Source: Blastococcus colisei (GTDB lineage Bacteria > Actinomycetota > Actinomycetes > Mycobacteriales > Geodermatophilaceae). From it: 64,000 nt of DNA. The stretch covers positions 682,001 through 746,000 of the forward strand of contig NZ_VFQE01000001.1 in the NCBI RefSeq assembly GCF_006717095.1. The letters are read 5' to 3'. Position 1 is the first letter of the stretch. Each line of letters opens with the position of its first letter. Both the position numbers and the translations under genes were made by a program. This document shows positions 18,190 through 26,366 of this stretch, piece by piece. The notes beneath the pieces are model-generated. The model did no database searches and was not told the origin of the DNA. It saw only the letters and a program-made list of their open reading frames with translations.

Positions 18190-20381
18190 CCGTCGAGATG
18201 CCGGACCCGGTGCCCCTCGACATGCCGCCCGGCGAGCCGGCCGCCGTCGACGACCTGGTCCGCGACGTCACCGGAGCTGCGTACTGGCTGGCCGTGCTGG
18301 CCGATCAGCTGTCGGGCCCGGCGGCGTCGGCCCCGGCATGGCTGGGCGCCGACGCGGTGGCGGCCGCGACCCAGCTGGCTCGCGTCGCCGCCATCACCCG
18401 CGGGTCCGCGGACGCGGTGCGGGCCACCGCCGGCCGGCTGAGCACCCACGGGGCGCTGCTGCGCGACACACGGCGCGAGGTGACCGCCCTCCGCGAGGAG
18501 CAGGACGAGGACTTCCGGGTGGCGTGGCAGCGCCTCGGGCAGAGCGAGGACCTGCGGCTGGCCGTGCTGACCGGCTCGTCCGCCTGGGTGGGGGTGGTGG
18601 CCGAGCTCGAGGCGGCGGAGTCCCGTCGTCGGCGGCGGCACGCACTCGTGCTCGAGGAGCTCGCGGACGACGCCGCCGCGACGGTCCGTGAACTGGCCGA
18701 CGCCGGCCGGCTGGTGGGCGCCACCGGGCGGACGGGCGACGGTGGCCGCGTGCTGGCGTACCTGGCGGCGGAGCTGCCCGGGTGGGGGCATCCCGAGCTG
18801 GCCGGCCGGGGTCGTGCGCTGGCCGACGCCATGATGGGCGAAAGCCTCACCCCGGAGGAGCGCGCGGCCCTCGCCTCGGACTCCGCGAGCCTGGCCGGGA
18901 ACCCCGTCTTCGCCACCGCACTCGTCCGGGGGCTGGGGGAGGTGGGCGTCGGCCTGCTGCTGCAGCTGCTCGGTCAGGACCCCGACGGTCCCGACAACCC
19001 GCTGGCGGGTGTCCTGGCATCAGCCCTCGGTGCCGCGACGCCGGGCCCGTCCGCGCACGACGGGGTGGCTGCCGTGCTCGGAGCCACCTACGTCCGCGCC
19101 GACGAGCGCATCGGCGCCGCCGCGACGGCTGCCGGGATGGCGGCCGTGCTCCTCGCGGGGGCCGGTTCCGCCGGGCTCCGGCCGGCAACCGCGGGGGAGT
19201 GGGCGCGGCAACTGCTGGTCCGCGAGCACGTCCAGAAGATGCCGGCCGGAACGGTGCCCGTGGCGTGGCCCTCCGAGGCGGCCGATCCGGTGGCGGTGGC
19301 GGTGCAGTTCGTGGCGCGGAGCGGCGACCCGGAGGCCGCAGCCGCTCTCCTCGGGGACGAGCGGGTCTGGGAGGCGCTGCTCGTACGGTTCTGGGGCGAC
19401 GGCGGAACGGCTCTCGGCGACCTGGTCGCCGAGGCCGGGCGCGAGAGCGGCCCGGCCGGGGACCGGGCGGTGCGGCTCGGGCTGGAGACGATCGGGGCGG
19501 GGCTGGTCGAGGGGGACCCGGCCGACTGGACGGTGGACCGGGACGTCGTCGCGGCGGTGTCCCCGGCGTTGGGCGATGCGGTGGCCGCTCACGTGGACCT
19601 CGCGGCGAACGCCCTCGGGGCCGTGGCATCCGACGATGGGGCATCCGACGGCGTGGCATCCGACGGCGTGGCCTCCGGCGGCGGCGGCGGAGAAGCGAGC
19701 GGGGACCTGCTGAAGGGCCTGGGCTACCTGACGGTGGACCGGCAGGCCGCGGCTGCCGTGGAGGGTGCCCTCTCGGAGTGGGCCGGCATGCAGTCGCACG
19801 ACCTGGCGGGGAGCAGTCGCGCACACCCGCTGCCCGCCGTCGCCGTCCCCGCCGCCTACCTCGCCGTCCAGGAGTACGGGCAGCGGTTGAACCACGCGCT
19901 GGACGGGTTCGAGCTGCAGGAGGAGGCCGAGAACAAGGAGCGGCTGTGGAACTGGACCGCTGGGTGGGTGCTGGAGGTGGTCTCCTACGTGCCGGTCAAG
20001 CCCGTGGCTGTCGCCGCCGACGTCCTGGGCGCGTACGGCCCACTCTTCCTCGACATGGACGGGACGTTCGAGCAGCTCCCGGACCGGGGACTGCGCCACG
20101 ACGCCGACATGGCCGGCGCGAATGCACTCGCCGCGCTGCCGCCGGACCTGACGGCCCGGGCGGACGCCGTACGGGCGCAGGCCGAGGCGTCCTACCGGCG
20201 GACGGCGGGGTGGCTGGGCGATCCGGTGGCCCCGACGTCGCCGGAGAAGGACTGGGTCGGTGCCACCCTCGACCTCCTGACCGGAGGGATGGCCGACATG
20301 GGGATCGACGAGCTGCGCGACCGTGCGGAACGCGAGGGCGCCCACGGCCGCTTCGGTGGCCTGCTGCCCGGGCGGCGCTGA
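18186..20381 (+). CDS. Large alpha-helical protein with WXG-like N-terminus, function unknown
   Basis: 731 residues, translationally coupled to the preceding 94-residue gene by ATGA. Residues ~18-130 form long helices with a WLG turn (APAWLGADAVAAATQLAR), reminiscent of the helix-turn-helix hairpin of WXG100/LXG proteins. The middle (about 200-600) is Ala/Gly/Leu-rich without motifs I recognise. Residues 480-499 are a short tandem repeat (VASDG-type). The C-terminus (DWVGATLDLLTGGMADMGID) could be the variable end of a secreted effector, but no toxin catalytic motif or immunity gene is visible. No signal peptide and no convincing membrane helix. Related actinobacterial proteins of unknown function are likely. 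Confidence 0.65.
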   Translation: MTVEMPDPVPLDMPPGEPAAVDDLVRDVTGAAYWLAVLADQLSGPAASAPAWLGADAVAAATQLARVAAITRGSADAVRATAGRLSTHGALLRDTRREVTALREEQDEDFRVAWQRLGQSEDLRLAVLTGSSAWVGVVAELEAAESRRRRRHALVLEELADDAAATVRELADAGRLVGATGRTGDGGRVLAYLAAELPGWGHPELAGRGRALADAMMGESLTPEERAALASDSASLAGNPVFATALVRGLGEVGVGLLLQLLGQDPDGPDNPLAGVLASALGAATPGPSAHDGVAAVLGATYVRADERIGAAATAAGMAAVLLAGAGSAGLRPATAGEWARQLLVREHVQKMPAGTVPVAWPSEAADPVAVAVQFVARSGDPEAAAALLGDERVWEALLVRFWGDGGTALGDLVAEAGRESGPAGDRAVRLGLETIGAGLVEGDPADWTVDRDVVAAVSPALGDAVAAHVDLAANALGAVASDDGASDGVASDGVASGGGGGEASGDLLKGLGYLTVDRQAAAAVEGALSEWAGMQSHDLAGSSRAHPLPAVAVPAAYLAVQEYGQRLNHALDGFELQEEAENKERLWNWTAGWVLEVVSYVPVKPVAVAADVLGAYGPLFLDMDGTFEQLPDRGLRHDADMAGANALAALPPDLTARADAVRAQAEASYRRTAGWLGDPVAPTSPEKDWVGATLDLLTGGMADMGIDELRDRAEREGAHGRFGGLLPGRR
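19623..19682 (+). repeat. In-frame 15-bp tandem repeat (four imperfect copies)
   Basis: Four consecutive 15-bp units starting at 19623, 19638, 19653 and 19668 follow the pattern GTGGCATCCGACGGC. They encode VASDD, GASDG, VASDG and VASGG. The last copy is the most divergent and runs into a Gly-rich stretch. It is a likely site of copy-number variation between strains. Confidence 0.75.
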
Positions 20382-20384
20382 CGG

Positions 20385-20408
20385 CGTCACCCACTCCAAT
20401 TGGTGACG
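20385..20408 (+). terminator. Stem-loop after the 731-residue gene
   Basis: CGTCACC (20385-20391) pairs with GGTGACG (20402-20408) over a 10-base loop, starting three bases after the stop codon. There is no T-tract. The stem overlaps the putative promoter of the next transcript. Confidence 0.35.
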
Positions 20409-20428
20409 TGCCGTGGAAGTCTGATAAC
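20400..20428 (+). promoter_or_regulatory. Candidate promoter for the RGVRWS micro-gene
   Basis: TTGGTG (20400-20405) and GATAAC (20423-20428) are separated by exactly 17 bases. A start near 20435 would leave a ~155-base leader before the micro-gene, containing the long-range inverted repeat CCGTCAC (20450-20456)/GTGACGG (20489-20495). Both hexamers deviate from consensus, so this is a candidate only. Confidence 0.3.
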
Positions 20429-20593
20429 ACAGAGCGACGACGCGACTGTCCGTCACCCGGTCGTGATCTTCGGTGCTTGTCCGATCGAGTGACGGGAAGC
20501 AATGTCTCCCGCGCGGTCCGTACTGAACGACGCTCTGCCCCCGCGCGTAGGTGGCTGCCGCAAGTCGCAGTCAGTCATGCCTGAGGAGGCGCT

Positions 20594-20683
20594 ATGAGCA
20601 GCAACGTGCGTGGAGTTCGCTGGAGCCGTGGGGTTCGTTGGAGCCGTGGAGTTCGTTGGAGCCGCGGCGTTCGCTGGAGCTGA
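20594..20683 (+). CDS. 29-residue micro-protein of tandem RGVRWS repeats
   Basis: ATG 20594 to TGA 20683 follows GAGGAGG at optimal spacing (20583-20589). After MSSNV the whole product is four exact copies of Arg-Gly-Val-Arg-Trp-Ser, encoded by four 18-bp units at 20609, 20627, 20645 and 20663. The DNA units differ from one another, but every difference is at a third codon position and silent (Arg CGT/CGC, Gly GGA/GGG/GGC, Arg CGC/CGT), which is strong evidence of selection on the peptide. A perfect 9-bp hairpin follows four bases after the stop. The product is very basic (eight Arg) with four Trp, has no signal peptide or membrane helix, and lies just before a GGDEF-EAL gene. I know no function for it. 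Confidence 0.8.
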   Translation: MSSNVRGVRWSRGVRWSRGVRWSRGVRWS

Positions 20684-20686
20684 ACT

Positions 20687-20708
20687 CCCGGGGGCCAGAG
20701 CCCCCGGG
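20687..20708 (+). terminator. Intrinsic terminator-like hairpin after the micro-gene
   Basis: CCCGGGGGC (20687-20695) is perfectly complementary to GCCCCCGGG (20700-20708) over a CAGA loop. It begins three bases after the micro-gene stop, so the micro-gene probably has its own short transcript, or the hairpin attenuates reading into the downstream GGDEF-EAL gene. Confidence 0.65.
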
Positions 20709-20766
20709 CGTGAGGCCCTTCAGTGAGGGGTCCCCGAACGACCGACCCATTAGGGTCACGAGGGGG

Positions 20767-20794
20767 TTGTCCGGCGTCTTCGCGCTGTTAGCCT
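20767..20794 (+). promoter_or_regulatory. Candidate promoter for the GGDEF-EAL gene
   Basis: TTGTCC (20767-20772) and TAGCCT (20789-20794) are spaced by 16 bases, about 37 bases ahead of the likely GTG start. The -10 fits only loosely. Confidence 0.3.
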
Positions 20795-20830
20795 CGTCGC
20801 GCCCATCTTCCCCGGGGAATGCAGGTAAGA

Positions 20831-23368
20831 GTGGCCCAGCAGGACGCCCGCGCGCCATACCGGCCGCCGTTGTTCCGCAATCCCTGGACGGTTGCGTGGC
20901 TGGCCTTCGCGTTGGCCGTTCCCGTGTCCCTCGCGGTGCTGTGGTCGGCTCCGGTGAGTGCCGAGCTGCCCTTGGTCCTCGCGCTCTTCTGCGCTCTCGC
21001 GGCCGCCGAGTGGTTCAGCGTCCACGTCGAGTTCCGGCGGCAGGGCTTTTCCGTCTCGGCGGCCGAACTGGCCTTCGTGATCGCGCTGGTCGAGATCGGT
21101 GGTGCCTGGACCGCGGTGGCCCGGGCGGCGGCGGTCGGTTTCGTCCTGCTCGCGCAGGGCTTCCCGCGGGCCAAGGTCGTCTTCAACATGGCCGTGGTGG
21201 CCCTCGAGGTCAGCGTGGCCGTCGCCGTCCTCACCTGGCTCCCCGTCGGTGACATCTCCTCGCCGGCCACGTGGCTCTCCTACCTGGTCGCCGTCCTGGC
21301 GGCCAGCGCGGTCGGGGCCCTGTTGACCGCAGGCGCCATCACGTGCACCCAGGGGTATCCCGGCCGTGCACTGTGGGCCAGCCTCCTCGTGACCGTGGTG
21401 ATCATCGGCCCGGTGTCCGTCCTGGTCGGCCTCACGATCCTGGTGGTCGTCGACGTGAGCTCCTGGGCGTGGCTGATGGTCGCTCCGCTGATGCTGGCGC
21501 TCGTGCTGCTCTTCCGACGGTTCGCCGCGGTCTCACGCGAGGGGCAGACGCTGGAGCAGGTCTATGAATTCGCGCGACGGGTGGAGCAGGTCTCGCCCGA
21601 CGAGGAGGGCACCCTCCAGATCGTGCACGCGGTCCGCGAGCTGCTGAACGCCGAGCGGGTGGCACTCTGGCTGCCGCCCTATCTGGACGAAGAGCCTCGA
21701 ATGGTCGTCTCCGCGGAGAACGGGGCGGTCTGGTACGACGGCCCCGGCGACCCCGACGACGTCTTCCGCCGCCGCGCAGTGGCCTCGGAGGATGGCCCGG
21801 TCCGGGTGTCTCTCGACCGCGCGGACGAGGAGGAGACGGCCGCGCTGGCCCGGCGTGGTGTCTCCGATCTGCTCGGCGCCTCGGTGACGACCGCGGCCGG
21901 CGAGCCCGGTTACCTCGAGGTCTGCGACCGGCGCAGCGACGTCATCACCTTCGCCGACAGCGACCGCGCCGCCCTCGACTCGATGCTCACCCACGTCAAC
22001 GCGGCGATCCGGCACCAGCAGCTGCTGACGCAGATCCGCTACGACGCCGACCACGACCGACTGACCGGGCTGCCCAACCGCCAGCGCCTGGCAGCCGAGA
22101 TCGACGAGCTCCTCGCCGCCGACCCGGTCAGCGCACGGGCTGGGCTGATCCTGGCGGCGCTGGGCAACTACACCGAGGTAACCGACACCCTGGGTCACGC
22201 CGCGAGCGACGAGCTGCTGCTGGTCACCGCCGGCCTGCTGCGCGAGCACGCCCCGCCGTCGGCACGGCTGGCGCGGATGGAGGGCGAGCAGTTCGCCGTC
22301 CTGCTGCCCGGGCTCTCCCTGCAGGCCACCGAGCGCGCCGCCCGGCGGCTGCGGGAGGCGGCGTCGACGCGCGCCCGCGTGGCGGGTCTGGACCTGGAGG
22401 TCACGCTGACGATCGGGGTGGCCGCCGCACCGGTGCACGGCCCCGACTCCGGGATGCTGATGCAGCGGGCCGACGTCGCTCTCCTCGCGGCGGCCGAGTC
22501 CGGTGGGGTGGCCAGCTACCACCCGGTCCTCGACCAGCAGAGCCTGCGCCGGCTGCAGCTGGGTACCGAACTCGAGCAGGCGATGGCCGACGGGCAGATC
22601 AGCGTCGTCTTCCAGCCGATCATCGATGCCCAGACCTCCGACATCGTCTCGGTGGAGACGCTCGTGCGGTGGGCGCACCCGCGCTACGGGGCGATCGCGC
22701 CGGACGACTTCATCCACCTCGCCGAGCAGATCGGCCGCATCGGAGCGGTCACCGACCACGTGCTCGACCTCGCGCTGGCCCGCTGCCGGCGCTGGCTGGA
22801 CCAGGACATCGCGCTGTCGGTCGCGGTGAACCTCTCGGTGCACTGCCTCACCGAGCCCGACCTCGTGGCGCGGGTGCGGCGCGCGCTGCAGCGGCACCGC
22901 GTGCCGGGGGAGCTGCTCACCCTCGAGCTGACCGAGGGCAGCGTCGTCGACGACTCGGTGCGCGACAGCACGGTGCTCGCGGACCTGCACGGGCTGGGCC
23001 TGCGGCTCTCCATGGACGACTTCGGCACCGGCTACTCGTCGCTGTCGCAGCTCCGTCAGCTGCCGATCGACGAGGTCAAGATCGACAAGTCCTTCGTGCT
23101 GGGGATGTCCACCAGCCAGGGGGAATCGTTCATCGCCCGCTCGATCATCGAGCTGGCTCACAACCTGGGCCTGCGTGTCGTGGCCGAGGGTGTGGAGGAC
23201 GAGCTGACCCGCAACCTGCTGGCGGAGATGGGGTGCGACAAGCTGCAGGGCTTCCTGGTCAGCCGGCCGCTGCCCGACGACCGCCTGGAGAGCTGGCTGC
23301 TGGCCCGCACAGGTGTCCGGAAGGCTGCGCCGGGGGCCATCCACCGGCGCCTCTTCGTCCGGACCTGA
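20831..23368 (+). CDS. Membrane-bound degenerate GGDEF / intact EAL protein (cyclic di-GMP phosphodiesterase)
   Basis: 845 residues from GTG 20831, preferred over ATG 20819 because CAGGTAAGA sits just before it. The first ~235 residues hold seven or so hydrophobic segments (a MASE-like sensor), then a GAF-like region (about 250-390, VRELLNAERVALWLP). The GGDEF domain follows DHDRLTGLPNRQRL, but its signature reads EGEQF (484-488), lacking the first Gly and the catalytic Glu, so cyclase activity is unlikely. The EAL domain has ETLVRW (Glu 609), NLSVHCL, ELTEG, DDFGTGYSSL (Asp 729, 730), KIDKSFV and VAEGVE, so all main metal and catalytic positions I can check are present. Expected role: cyclic di-GMP hydrolysis regulated by the membrane and GGDEF domains. 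Confidence 0.9.
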   Translation: MAQQDARAPYRPPLFRNPWTVAWLAFALAVPVSLAVLWSAPVSAELPLVLALFCALAAAEWFSVHVEFRRQGFSVSAAELAFVIALVEIGGAWTAVARAAAVGFVLLAQGFPRAKVVFNMAVVALEVSVAVAVLTWLPVGDISSPATWLSYLVAVLAASAVGALLTAGAITCTQGYPGRALWASLLVTVVIIGPVSVLVGLTILVVVDVSSWAWLMVAPLMLALVLLFRRFAAVSREGQTLEQVYEFARRVEQVSPDEEGTLQIVHAVRELLNAERVALWLPPYLDEEPRMVVSAENGAVWYDGPGDPDDVFRRRAVASEDGPVRVSLDRADEEETAALARRGVSDLLGASVTTAAGEPGYLEVCDRRSDVITFADSDRAALDSMLTHVNAAIRHQQLLTQIRYDADHDRLTGLPNRQRLAAEIDELLAADPVSARAGLILAALGNYTEVTDTLGHAASDELLLVTAGLLREHAPPSARLARMEGEQFAVLLPGLSLQATERAARRLREAASTRARVAGLDLEVTLTIGVAAAPVHGPDSGMLMQRADVALLAAAESGGVASYHPVLDQQSLRRLQLGTELEQAMADGQISVVFQPIIDAQTSDIVSVETLVRWAHPRYGAIAPDDFIHLAEQIGRIGAVTDHVLDLALARCRRWLDQDIALSVAVNLSVHCLTEPDLVARVRRALQRHRVPGELLTLELTEGSVVDDSVRDSTVLADLHGLGLRLSMDDFGTGYSSLSQLRQLPIDEVKIDKSFVLGMSTSQGESFIARSIIELAHNLGLRVVAEGVEDELTRNLLAEMGCDKLQGFLVSRPLPDDRLESWLLARTGVRKAAPGAIHRRLFVRT

Positions 23369-24371: not shown

Positions 24372-24520
24372 GACAGGGGCGTGAGCATCGCAGCGAGCGA
24401 CCGAGCCGACAGCGAGTGAGCATCGCAGCGAGCGCCAGCGAGCGAGGAGCGGAGCGAGCGCGGAGGCGAGTAACGGCAGAGCGAGCGAGGAGCGGAGCGC
24501 CCCGCGGGAGCGAACGGGGG
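24372..24520 (+). repeat. Low-complexity AGCG-rich spacer with internal repeats
   Basis: The spacer between the two MaoC genes is built from short repeats. GTGAGCATCGCAGCGAGCG occurs at 24381-24399 and again at 24416-24434, and the 20-mer AGCGAGCGAGGAGCGGAGCG occurs at 24437-24456 and 24480-24499. Smaller GAGCGAG units fill the rest. I see no open frame or hairpin that explains it. Similar GAGCGAG strings occur at 3525-3545 and around 28605. Confidence 0.85.
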
Positions 24521-24525
24521 GTGTC

Positions 24526-24939
24526 GTGAGCACGACAGTCGAGGTGGGCGCGGAGCTGCCCGAGCAGGTCTTCCGCATCACCCGTGCCGATCTCGTCCGC
24601 TACGCCGGGGCCTCCGGCGACTTCAACCCGATCCACTGGAACGACCGCGTCGCGACCGCGGTGGGGCTGCCCGGGGTCATCGCGCACGGCATGTTCACGA
24701 TGGCGCTGGCCGGCCGGGCGGTGACCGCCTGGACCGGTGACCCGTCCGCGGTCGTCGAGCAGCACGTCCGCTTCGGCCGGCCCGTCGTCGTCCCCGACGA
24801 CGACGAGGGCGCCGAGGTGACGGTGCGCGGCACGGTCGGCTCGCTGCTCGACGACGGCCGGGTCCGGGTCGACCTCACCGTCACGACCGGCGGCGAGAAG
24901 GTGCTCTCCCTGGCTCGCGCGATCGTCCGTCTGGCATGA
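24526..24939 (+). CDS. MaoC-family dehydratase (HadB-like)
   Basis: 137 residues, GTG start at 24526. ASGDFNPIHWNDRVA (about residues 28-42) is the hydratase-2 motif with catalytic Asp and His, followed by GVIAHGMFTMALAGRAVTAW. It should be the catalytic half of a heterodimer with the gene at 23922. The 157-bp repeat-filled spacer between them is unusual for subunits of one enzyme. The stop overlaps the next start as ATGA. Confidence 0.88.
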   Translation: MSTTVEVGAELPEQVFRITRADLVRYAGASGDFNPIHWNDRVATAVGLPGVIAHGMFTMALAGRAVTAWTGDPSAVVEQHVRFGRPVVVPDDDEGAEVTVRGTVGSLLDDGRVRVDLTVTTGGEKVLSLARAIVRLA

Positions 24940-26366
24940 GGGGCCGGCGGCCGGTCGTCCTGGTCGCTGCCGGCGTGTTGATCCTGTCCGGCTGCACGTC
25001 CTTCGCCGAATCGGTGACCGTGGCGCCGCCTGCGGCCACGGAGCCCACGCCGGAGGCCGTGGAGGAGGGCTGCCCTGCTGCACGGGCCGAGCCCGACCCT
25101 GACCGGCCCGAGACAGCCCTCGACTTCCGGCTCGCGGACGACGGGCGGAGCGTCACCGGCACCGAGACCGTCGTCTTCACCCCGGACATCGACGTCCGGG
25201 AGCTGGTCTTCCGGCTCGTACCCAACGGTCCGGACTCCGCGCCGGCCGGTAACCGGCTGGTCGTCGAGGACGTCCGGGGGGACGACGTCGCCGGCGGCCG
25301 GTACGAGGCCGCGGGAGCGGCCGACCCGGGCGGGCTCTACGTGGTGGAGCTCGAGGAGGCGCTGGCGGCGGGAGAGTCCACCGAGCTGTCGCTGGACTTC
25401 TCGCTGACCCTCGGCAGTGGCGCGTTCGATCGGTTCGGCGTCGCCGGGGGCACCTCCTGGTGGGCGAGCGGTGCGCCGCTGCTCGCCTGGGAGCCCGGCG
25501 TCGGCTGGGCCCGCGACCCGTTCGTGGCGCTCAGCGGGGAGACCACGGCCAGCCCGGTCGCGGACACCGTCGTCACCGTCTCGGCTCCGGAGGAGCTGAC
25601 GGTGCTGATGACCGGCGCTCAGGCCGAGCCCTCAGCCCCCCGCGACGGGCGGCGGATCTGGACATCGCGGGAGCCGGTCGCCCGCGACGTCGCGGTCGCG
25701 GCCGGGCCGTTCACCACCACGGGGACGACGACTCCGGGCGGTACCCGGGTGACGACCGGCGTGCTGCCCGGCGCCGAGGTCCCCGGCGACGTCCTCAGTG
25801 CCTGGACGGTGGCGGCTATCGCCGACCTCGAGGCGTTCCTCGGCCCGTTCCCCTACCGGACGCTGACAGTGGCGCTCCTGCCCGACCTCGGCGGCGGCAT
25901 CGAGTACCCGAGCATGATCCTCGAGGCCACCCCGAGCCGGGAGGTCCTCGTCCACGAGGTGGCCCACCAGTGGTTCTACGGGATGGTGGGCAACTCGCAG
26001 TTCCGCGACCCCTGGCTCGACGAGGCATTCGCGTCCTGGGCCGAGGCCGTCGTCGACCCCGGCTCGGGTCTCGTCACCGAGCAGGCGCTGACCCTGCCCG
26101 GGCCGGTCGGCGCCGCCATGGACGAGTTCGAGACCTCGGGCAGCTACTTCCGGCTGGTCTACGACAAGGGCGGCGCGGCCTTGCTGGCGGCGCAGCGGGC
26201 CGTGGGGGACGCGGCCTTCGACGCGGCGATCAGGTGCTACGTCGATGCGACGGCATGGAGCATCGCCACGCCGACCGACGTCCATCGGGCGCTGGCCGAC
26301 CTGCCGGGCGCGCTGGCCGTCCTCGAGGACGCCCAGGCCCTCGGGGAGGACGACGCCCCGCGCTGA
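24936..26366 (+). CDS. M1-family zinc metallopeptidase, lipoprotein
   Basis: 476 residues. The signal segment ends in LILSGC (lipobox), then a Thr/Pro linker, so the enzyme should sit on the outer face of the membrane. HEVAH (His 340, Glu 341, His 344) is followed after 18 residues by Glu 363 in WLDEAFASWAE, the exact gluzincin spacing. GIEYPSMI takes the place of the substrate-binding GAMEN motif of classic aminopeptidases. A tyrosine for transition-state binding may be YDKGGAALL. ATG 24936 overlaps the MaoC stop. Substrate unknown. Confidence 0.86.
   Translation: MRGRRPVVLVAAGVLILSGCTSFAESVTVAPPAATEPTPEAVEEGCPAARAEPDPDRPETALDFRLADDGRSVTGTETVVFTPDIDVRELVFRLVPNGPDSAPAGNRLVVEDVRGDDVAGGRYEAAGAADPGGLYVVELEEALAAGESTELSLDFSLTLGSGAFDRFGVAGGTSWWASGAPLLAWEPGVGWARDPFVALSGETTASPVADTVVTVSAPEELTVLMTGAQAEPSAPRDGRRIWTSREPVARDVAVAAGPFTTTGTTTPGGTRVTTGVLPGAEVPGDVLSAWTVAAIADLEAFLGPFPYRTLTVALLPDLGGGIEYPSMILEATPSREVLVHEVAHQWFYGMVGNSQFRDPWLDEAFASWAEAVVDPGSGLVTEQALTLPGPVGAAMDEFETSGSYFRLVYDKGGAALLAAQRAVGDAAFDAAIRCYVDATAWSIATPTDVHRALADLPGALAVLEDAQALGEDDAPR

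Follow-up and report, generated by a model that had tools for sequence, protein, structure and literature searches.

The question that arises from the locus described here is why a protein of only 29 residues, built almost entirely from one repeated hexapeptide, should be encoded directly ahead of a putative membrane receptor for the second messenger cyclic diguanosine monophosphate (c-di-GMP). The locus lies in a stretch of 64,000 nucleotides (nt) of the Blastococcus colisei genome (RefSeq assembly GCF_006717095.1, contig NZ_VFQE01000001.1, positions 682,001 to 746,000), which as a whole is called the window in the following. From our point of view, the evidence points to the peptide as a partner of the adjacent receptor, instead of the nucleic-acid- or membrane-binding peptide that a preliminary description of this DNA had envisaged. 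We consider it rather probable that the repeat peptide represents the specificity-setting ligand of that receptor and that both form a polymorphic peptide-receptor pair feeding c-di-GMP signalling. The basis for this reading is computational, namely protein-level selection on the repeats, a conserved pairing of the two genes, a separate predicted promoter for each gene with a hairpin in between, the predicted fold of the receptor, and a block in which peptide and sensing domain co-vary. The features first needed are the following.

20594 to 20683, forward strand: microprotein gene, MSSNV(RGVRWS)4, with ATG at 20594, TGA at 20681-20683 and 29 codons.
20819 to 23368, forward strand: receptor gene encoding a membrane domain, GAF, a degenerate GGDEF and EAL (ETLVRW); the start codon is putative.
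20873 to 21526, forward strand: membrane domain of the receptor (residues 19-236), with an S-component-like predicted fold; hypervariable.

Reading the window bore out the proposed frame, MSSNV followed by four exact copies of RGVRWS, and the array (20609-20680) was also detected by Tandem Repeats Finder. The four 18-mers indeed vary at third positions alone (CGT/CGC, GGA/GGG/GGC and CGC/CGT), as had been stated. To call the ribosome site optimal was too strong, since AGGAGG (20584-20589) lies just 4 nt from the ATG, closer than usual, and its last GG is able to pair in a hairpin of the leader. The 29-residue protein has no match in Pfam and no evident signal peptide, and three microproteins of the family gave no match in NCBIfam.

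A search of relatives' genomes with the window DNA and the peptide yielded 33 homologous micro-open reading frames (micro-ORFs), from whose common 5' leader a covariance model, R1, was built. R1 matches 101 of 112 Geodermatophilaceae genomes (33 of the 101 being the training set) with 105 leader matches in all, and it is present in 92 of the 96 family genomes with at least 90% completeness and at most 5% contamination. In an order-level sample, R1 was found in 51 of 298 genomes, all 51 of them Geodermatophilaceae, and a pattern search of named genomes (at least 80 loci) led to Blastococcus, Geodermatophilus, Modestobacter, Klenkia and Trujillonella, which belong to the same family; among the matches listed there is also one record titled Bacillus sp. 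and marked unverified. A short frame follows the leader in 102 of the 105 matches, the exceptions being second leader copies in three genomes (G114, G118 and G131), and 101 of these frames contain at least two Trp spaced six residues apart, the frame of G024 being a single unit. The recurrence of leader plus Trp frame across the family is beyond chance.

The 101 related arrays comprise 2-5 units each, the minimum of two being found in one copy (G007 contig C152), within whole proteins of 18-42 residues and a median net charge of +7. There are 65 distinct majority units, in which position 5 is Trp without exception (101/101), position 4 is Lys or Arg in 96 arrays, position 1 is Arg in 93 and position 2 is Gly in 77, while position 3 is taken by 14 different residues and position 6 is mainly G, S, T or N. 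The units of an array are identical as protein in 89 of the 101 cases and non-identical in 12; as DNA they are identical in 9. For unit pairs within arrays, the proportion of silent differences (pS) is 0.403 and that of replacement differences (pN) 0.011 (uncorrected values from non-independent pairs), so that, per site, silent differences exceed replacements about 37-fold. Where species have a unit in common (14 groups), silent differences amount to 0.41 when species are compared and to 0.45 among the units of a single array, and because the two values are so similar, the units appear to be old and kept identical by selection. The claim of selection at the protein level is hence strongly supported. 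Stops or frameshifts among repeat units of relatives had been named as counter-evidence, and this was followed in part by a narrow pattern search for units that resume past the stop; the one row returned (G146) is out of frame and looks like chance.

The pairing with the receptor gene is equally regular. In the window, the product scores 3.8e-68 for EAL, 1.2e-27 for GGDEF and 3.7e-6 for GAF in Pfam, and each of the 21 regions compared has a membrane-GAF-GGDEF-EAL gene downstream and on the same strand, with 68-85% identity in the 20 relatives. Whether a GGDEF-EAL gene follows the repeat frame had been suggested as a check, and it does so on the same strand in 104 of the 105 leader matches (44-100% identity; the three second leader copies are counted here), the 105th being situated at a contig end. 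The gap between stop and receptor gene has an estimated median of 144 nt. Since all 97 proteins counted have a degenerate GGDEF motif (EGEQF and similar) and 96 of them keep the EAL motif ETLVRW, the receptor would be expected to work as a phosphodiesterase or receptor more than as a cyclase.

To our knowledge, the signals sensed by GGDEF-EAL membrane receptors are mostly unknown. The predicted model of the membrane domain (predicted local distance difference test 85, predicted template modelling score 0.79) has S components of energy-coupling factor (ECF) transporters as its leading structure matches, among them presumably chains such as NikM2. No other membrane family ranked above the S components in the fold tables, and absence from such a list proves nothing. 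S-component-like membrane domains joined to GAF, GGDEF or EAL are found in the 5TMR-LYT and other S-component-fold receptors (PMC11109136), and the window receptor, with its predicted fold and GAF-GGDEF-EAL part, resembles these. It differs in that a comparison with PF07694 (5TMR-LYT) gave no match, and in the proposed peptide ligand, whereas the pyruvate sensors named in that study detect a small molecule (PMC11109136). The genome of the window has 27 EAL-domain matches at E<=1e-20 and thus a large c-di-GMP repertoire.

How, then, do peptide and receptor change relative to each other? Among 97 species, the mean difference is 0.556 in the membrane domain, 0.274 in GAF, 0.154 in GGDEF and 0.121 in EAL. 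In distance tests, the membrane domain follows the unit (within-genus partial r 0.451, p 0.0005), and r is small for EAL and upstream-leader distances, at most 0.16, with p <0.05 in some cases. Partial Mantel tests tend to be liberal when sequences are related. A column scan found unit-associated column-unit pairs in 111 of 585 cases for the membrane domain, 19 of 255 for GAF, 5 of 138 for GGDEF and 10 of 180 for EAL, and the most strongly associated columns fall into one loop.

21014 to 21061, forward strand: beta-hairpin loop (residues 66-81) between the first two S-component-like helices, with the columns most associated with the unit.

In this loop, 8 of 14 variable columns reach z>5, compared with 0-33% in the other eight regions (uncorrected for within-genus relatedness). 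In S components, the loop between the first two helices covers the substrate site. A claim of unit-specific co-variation with the membrane domain was nevertheless replaced by the description of a block: the peptide leader and the non-coding spacer, which served as control, behave alike, and they track the unit as the membrane domain does, for which a varying block is the reason.

The outline of this block can be seen in close pairs, i.e. same-genus pairs with EAL differing by <5%. Their membrane domains differ by 0.131 when the unit is the same (20 pairs) and by 0.471 when it is different (266 pairs), and at four-fold silent sites the difference goes from 0.319 in same-unit to 0.487 in different-unit pairs for the membrane domain, and from 0.254 to 0.294 for EAL. 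In the clearest pair (G031/G062), the 600 nt before the micro-ORF are 86-98% identical; DNA identity falls to 45-70% over the following 900 nt, recovers to 66-87% up to about +1400 and reaches 91-100% between there and +2900. This drop recurs in other close pairs, in some of which the upstream identity is lower. When pairs chosen at >=94% identity downstream (+1500 to +2600) are summed, which share species and are non-independent, 26 different-unit pairs have 63% identity (0.55-0.79) at 0 to +900 and 80% at -300 to 0, compared with 91% (0.81-0.96) and 84% in 5 same-unit pairs, and the catalytic part of different-unit close relatives stands at 95% identity.

Peptide gene and sensing half therefore vary together between more conserved flanks, a mosaic typical of polymorphic signal-receptor loci, and this is what leads us to favour a ligand. 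In the agr locus of staphylococci and comQXPA of Bacillus, the signal gene and the sensor part of the receptor diverge together and the catalytic part is conserved. Here likewise, peptide and sensor domain vary as one block with a conserved output, in this case between species. The differences concern the receptor, which is a GAF-GGDEF-EAL c-di-GMP enzyme with an S-component-like membrane domain in place of a histidine kinase, and the peptide, which is a tandem repeat with no evident signal sequence and no dedicated processing enzyme recognised among the scanned neighbours.

The same block would be expected from polymorphic self-recognition or antagonism, which we regard as the main rival: the Arg/Trp-rich peptide would be antimicrobial or toxic, the membrane domain its cognate immunity or sensing receptor, and competition would drive the diversity. 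An identical matched variable block would result from it, and the composition, with its net positive charge, is like that of cationic Trp peptides. However, the matched domain is joined to a signalling output in the form of a c-di-GMP enzyme, no exporter appeared among the few neighbours scanned with Pfam, and the motif is uncharged in several other lineages (GVTWS, GATWS), so that we judge antagonism unlikely, if the first alternative to consider.

If the peptide is indeed a ligand, a short basic peptide of identical Trp-containing units would act, presumably by physical binding, on the membrane domain of the receptor, and ligand and sensing domain would vary as a single cassette next to a conserved catalytic half. 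The peptide, which has no evident signal peptide, might leave the cell by another export route to reach an outward-facing site, or act from inside. Since the tandem units are identical within an array and different between species, it could represent either a multi-copy precursor, which might be cut after Arg into single units (most of them start with Arg), or a multivalent ligand. Binding would then alter the phosphodiesterase activity, in one direction or the other, and in consequence c-di-GMP. Multi-copy pheromone precursors are familiar from fungi, e.g. alpha-factor, and Bacillus has C-terminal Phr peptides. The arrays share with alpha-factor the identical tandem copies that differ between species, and Phr peptides resemble the related loci described below in that a small secreted protein ends in a short motif, but neither is homologous to the microprotein, whose processing is putative. 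A Pfam scan of four flanking genes of the window gave no known pheromone processing enzyme; one of the four (24936-26366) has a partial Peptidase_M1 match.

The pairing is not confined to this family. A frame was scored as tandem-Trp when it held at least three Trp with similar preceding residues, and 83 homologous loci were examined, of which 8 were dropped for <250 nt upstream; some of the remaining 75 share genomes. Such frames stand upstream on the same strand in 33 of the 75 and on the other strand in 3. Two of 40 control EAL genes that lack this input domain score, within a larger search interval (Fisher p 5e-6 against 33/75; two of the 40 control stretches overlap and one is just 2.2 kb long), and of these two matches L450 is chance-like and L459 a genuine repeat. 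In the latter (G419 contig C4), a frame of GHNWSG repeats lies upstream, on the same strand, of an EAL gene that has no detectable homology with this input domain; the Trp-repeat pairing may thus extend to other input domains. Weak Trp-motif neighbours also occur among the strict negatives (e.g. L272, L330, L337 and L343), as judged by eye and outside the 33/75. At L344 (G387), the protein encoded ahead of a GGDEF-EAL homologue is small, has an apparent signal peptide and consists of tandem GASLT repeats, an identical layout that lacks Trp.

The neighbours take different forms. In divergent Geodermatophilaceae genera, the upstream gene encodes either MS(RNGRWG)3RS or a small GVSWN/GVSWG-repeat protein that has an apparent signal peptide. 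In other families, this position is often taken by an S8 protease with as many as 23 Trp motifs at its end, or by a small protein that terminates in such motifs. The genome of the window has a second pair of this kind, in which an S8 protease (Pfam 1.1e-43) with (SGVTW)13 adjoins a GAF-GGDEF-EAL paralogue, its stop lying 4 nt ahead of the ATG of the paralogue. Searched in reverse with the Trp repeat, 44 of 197 class genomes match, and a GGDEF-EAL neighbour lies within the flank in 13 of 30 fetched loci. Of the remaining 17, judged by eye, 5 look genuine in short loci (1.6-2.3 kb, contig ends) and 11 hold chance-like frames; the array locus L395 has no GGDEF-EAL neighbour within the fetched flank.

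A relationship of the repeat to those of S8 proteases had been suspected from the outset. An S8 motif is present in 20 of the 33 scoring loci, i.e. in 20 of 75 homologous loci including the paralogue of the window genome, and in this respect the suspicion was well placed: the genomic context, gene order, GGDEF-EAL neighbour family and tandem Trp motif are common to both, whereas common descent of the repeats is not demonstrated. The window repeat differs in being free-standing, with no S8 domain in its 29 residues, no evident signal peptide and a six-residue, Arg-containing unit. On a tree of 94 input domains, the neighbour types cluster, with 23 changes against a shuffled mean of 51; the leaderless type requires at least three changes, and the sister group of the Geodermatophilaceae consists of four members whose repeat arrays are secreted or truncated. 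This tree is a quick one with 28 open forks and labels assigned by eye, and two loci (L262, L264) were labelled S8 from a truncated array alone.

These findings also bear on the possibility that the microprotein is a free-standing nucleic-acid- or membrane-binding protein, tied to the receptor just by inherited gene order. Its basic, Arg-Gly-rich sequence and the stable gene order across the family would suit such a role, but tandem-Trp neighbours recur class-wide in different protein contexts and unit and membrane domain change as a block, which makes it improbable in our view. Another conceivable role is that the peptide itself binds c-di-GMP and serves as a cytoplasmic buffer or reporter of the messenger. 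A precedent is the 28-residue tandem Arg/aromatic region of the Cle proteins, a c-di-GMP-binding peptide with the tandem motif [YF]xGP[DE][RK]R (PMC5677366); the unit likewise joins aromatic, Gly and Arg residues in a short tandem motif within c-di-GMP signalling, next to an EAL gene. On inspection, however, the Cle motif is absent from the 65 unit types, and the Cle region is part of a CheY-like protein (PMC5677366). Many Trp motifs of other lineages moreover lack Arg and Lys (an uncounted impression), and the joint change of unit and membrane domain would be left unexplained, so that this role seems very unlikely.

One could speculate beyond the window that there is a widespread peptide signalling into c-di-GMP, with Trp-peptide precursors of one or many copies, GGDEF-EAL receptors of the S-component fold and species-specific types that spread as cassettes. 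The precursors would be leaderless microproteins, small secreted proteins, or S8 proteases bearing their own signal copies, and an S-component-fold membrane receptor would have become the input domain of a GGDEF-EAL enzyme. We put this wider scenario forward tentatively, as a possibility in which we have less than even confidence. If true, it would tie peptide communication to c-di-GMP in actinobacteria, account for the hitherto unexplained Trp repeats on actinobacterial S8 proteases and represent a peptide-sensing use of the S-component fold. At the locus itself, a ligand candidate is encoded beside its receptor, the variable residues are known and natural swaps exist between species, and specificity is hence directly testable. 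In the one open-access library to which our search was confined, we found no description of the microprotein, of the Trp-repeat/GGDEF-EAL pairing or of the polymorphic block, and no published name for Trp-repeat S8 proteases beside GGDEF-EAL genes.

It remains to consider how the microprotein gene is expressed, for which four further features are relevant.

20477 to 20505, forward strand: predicted microprotein promoter, with -35 TTGTCC (20477-20482), a 17-nt spacer and -10 CAATGT (20500-20505).
20510 to 20596, forward strand: folded 5' leader (R1), with helices P1 (20511-20516/20541-20546), P2 (20552-20558/20567-20573) and P3 (20577-20581/20588-20592).
20687 to 20708, forward strand: terminator-like hairpin CCCGGGGGC-CAGA-GCCCCCGGG, beginning 3 nt past the stop.
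20767 to 20794, forward strand: predicted receptor-gene promoter, TTGTCC (20767-20772) and -10 TAGCCT (20789-20794), inside the conserved CGCTGTTAGCCT.

The predicted microprotein promoter aligns in 33 relatives and is sigma-70-like (TTGNCC, 17-18 nt, CAATGT-like); CTTG was located in 91 gene units and lies 36-37 nt ahead of the leader in 71 of these. The hairpin that had been reported directly after the frame is present, and stems of at least 9 pairs within 110 nt past the stop occur in 74 of 102 gene units, compared with 14 of 102 single-base shuffles. Downstream of it, most columns of the CGCTGTTAGCCT block are at least 90% conserved in 21 aligned regions, the -35 within it being a consensus reading from the window sequence alone. 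Owing to the predicted promoter, the hairpin and the separate promoter-like block before the receptor gene, the microprotein gene looks like its own transcription unit. This arrangement of short frame, folded leader, hairpin past the stop and receptor gene could also be that of a leader peptide: its translation would govern how much read-through passes the hairpin into the receptor gene, with no role for the product itself. We think this improbable as well, because a conserved promoter-like block belonging to the receptor gene lies past the hairpin, because unit positions 3 and 6 are variable and leave no near-constant codon besides Trp and Arg/Lys, and because S8 proteases and small secreted proteins are among the counterparts elsewhere.

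Regarding the leader itself, a model-fitted alignment of 103 rows has 10 pairs changed on both sides, compared with a shuffled mean of 5.6 (0 of 500 shuffles equal this, and slid versions of the pairing score 5 at most); this alignment was fitted to the structure being tested, and the support for P2 and P3 depends on it. An unfitted alignment of 33 rows showed no excess of double-sided changes, RNAalifold recovered P1 alone and no covariation from the first leader alignment, and an Rfam covariance-model scan of window positions 20000-21200 (E up to 1) gave no match for the leader. As P1 varies little, it could equally be read as a DNA element. P3, which occupies the last GG of the ribosome site, has 4 of 5 standard pairs in the window, and for a putative long-range pairing of the leader loop GACGC near the start codon, the partner changes without compensation in the aligned rows on inspection. 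A second frame upstream (20502-20597, 31 residues, overlapping the ATG) was rejected as a gene, as changes in leader length break it in several relatives by inspection.

Some minor observations concern the surroundings. Upstream of the predicted microprotein promoter, the inverted motifs GTCACC..GGTGAC (20380-20470) are conserved in many aligned relatives and are likely a candidate regulator site. The second leader copies in G114, G118 and G131 lie 0.6-2.2 kb upstream of the first (L136 4446-4530, L112 5715-5806 and L129 6101-6176, all on the reverse strand), and those in L136 and L112 precede a protein of 70-77 residues with a hydrophobic stretch in place of a Trp-repeat frame. Further downstream, an AGCG-rich simple repeat (24392-24499) is situated between a MaoC-like gene and the next gene, and the gene at 24936-26366, the one with the partial match to Peptidase_M1, follows the receptor gene at a distance of 1.6 kb and occupies this position in 12 of the 21 regions.
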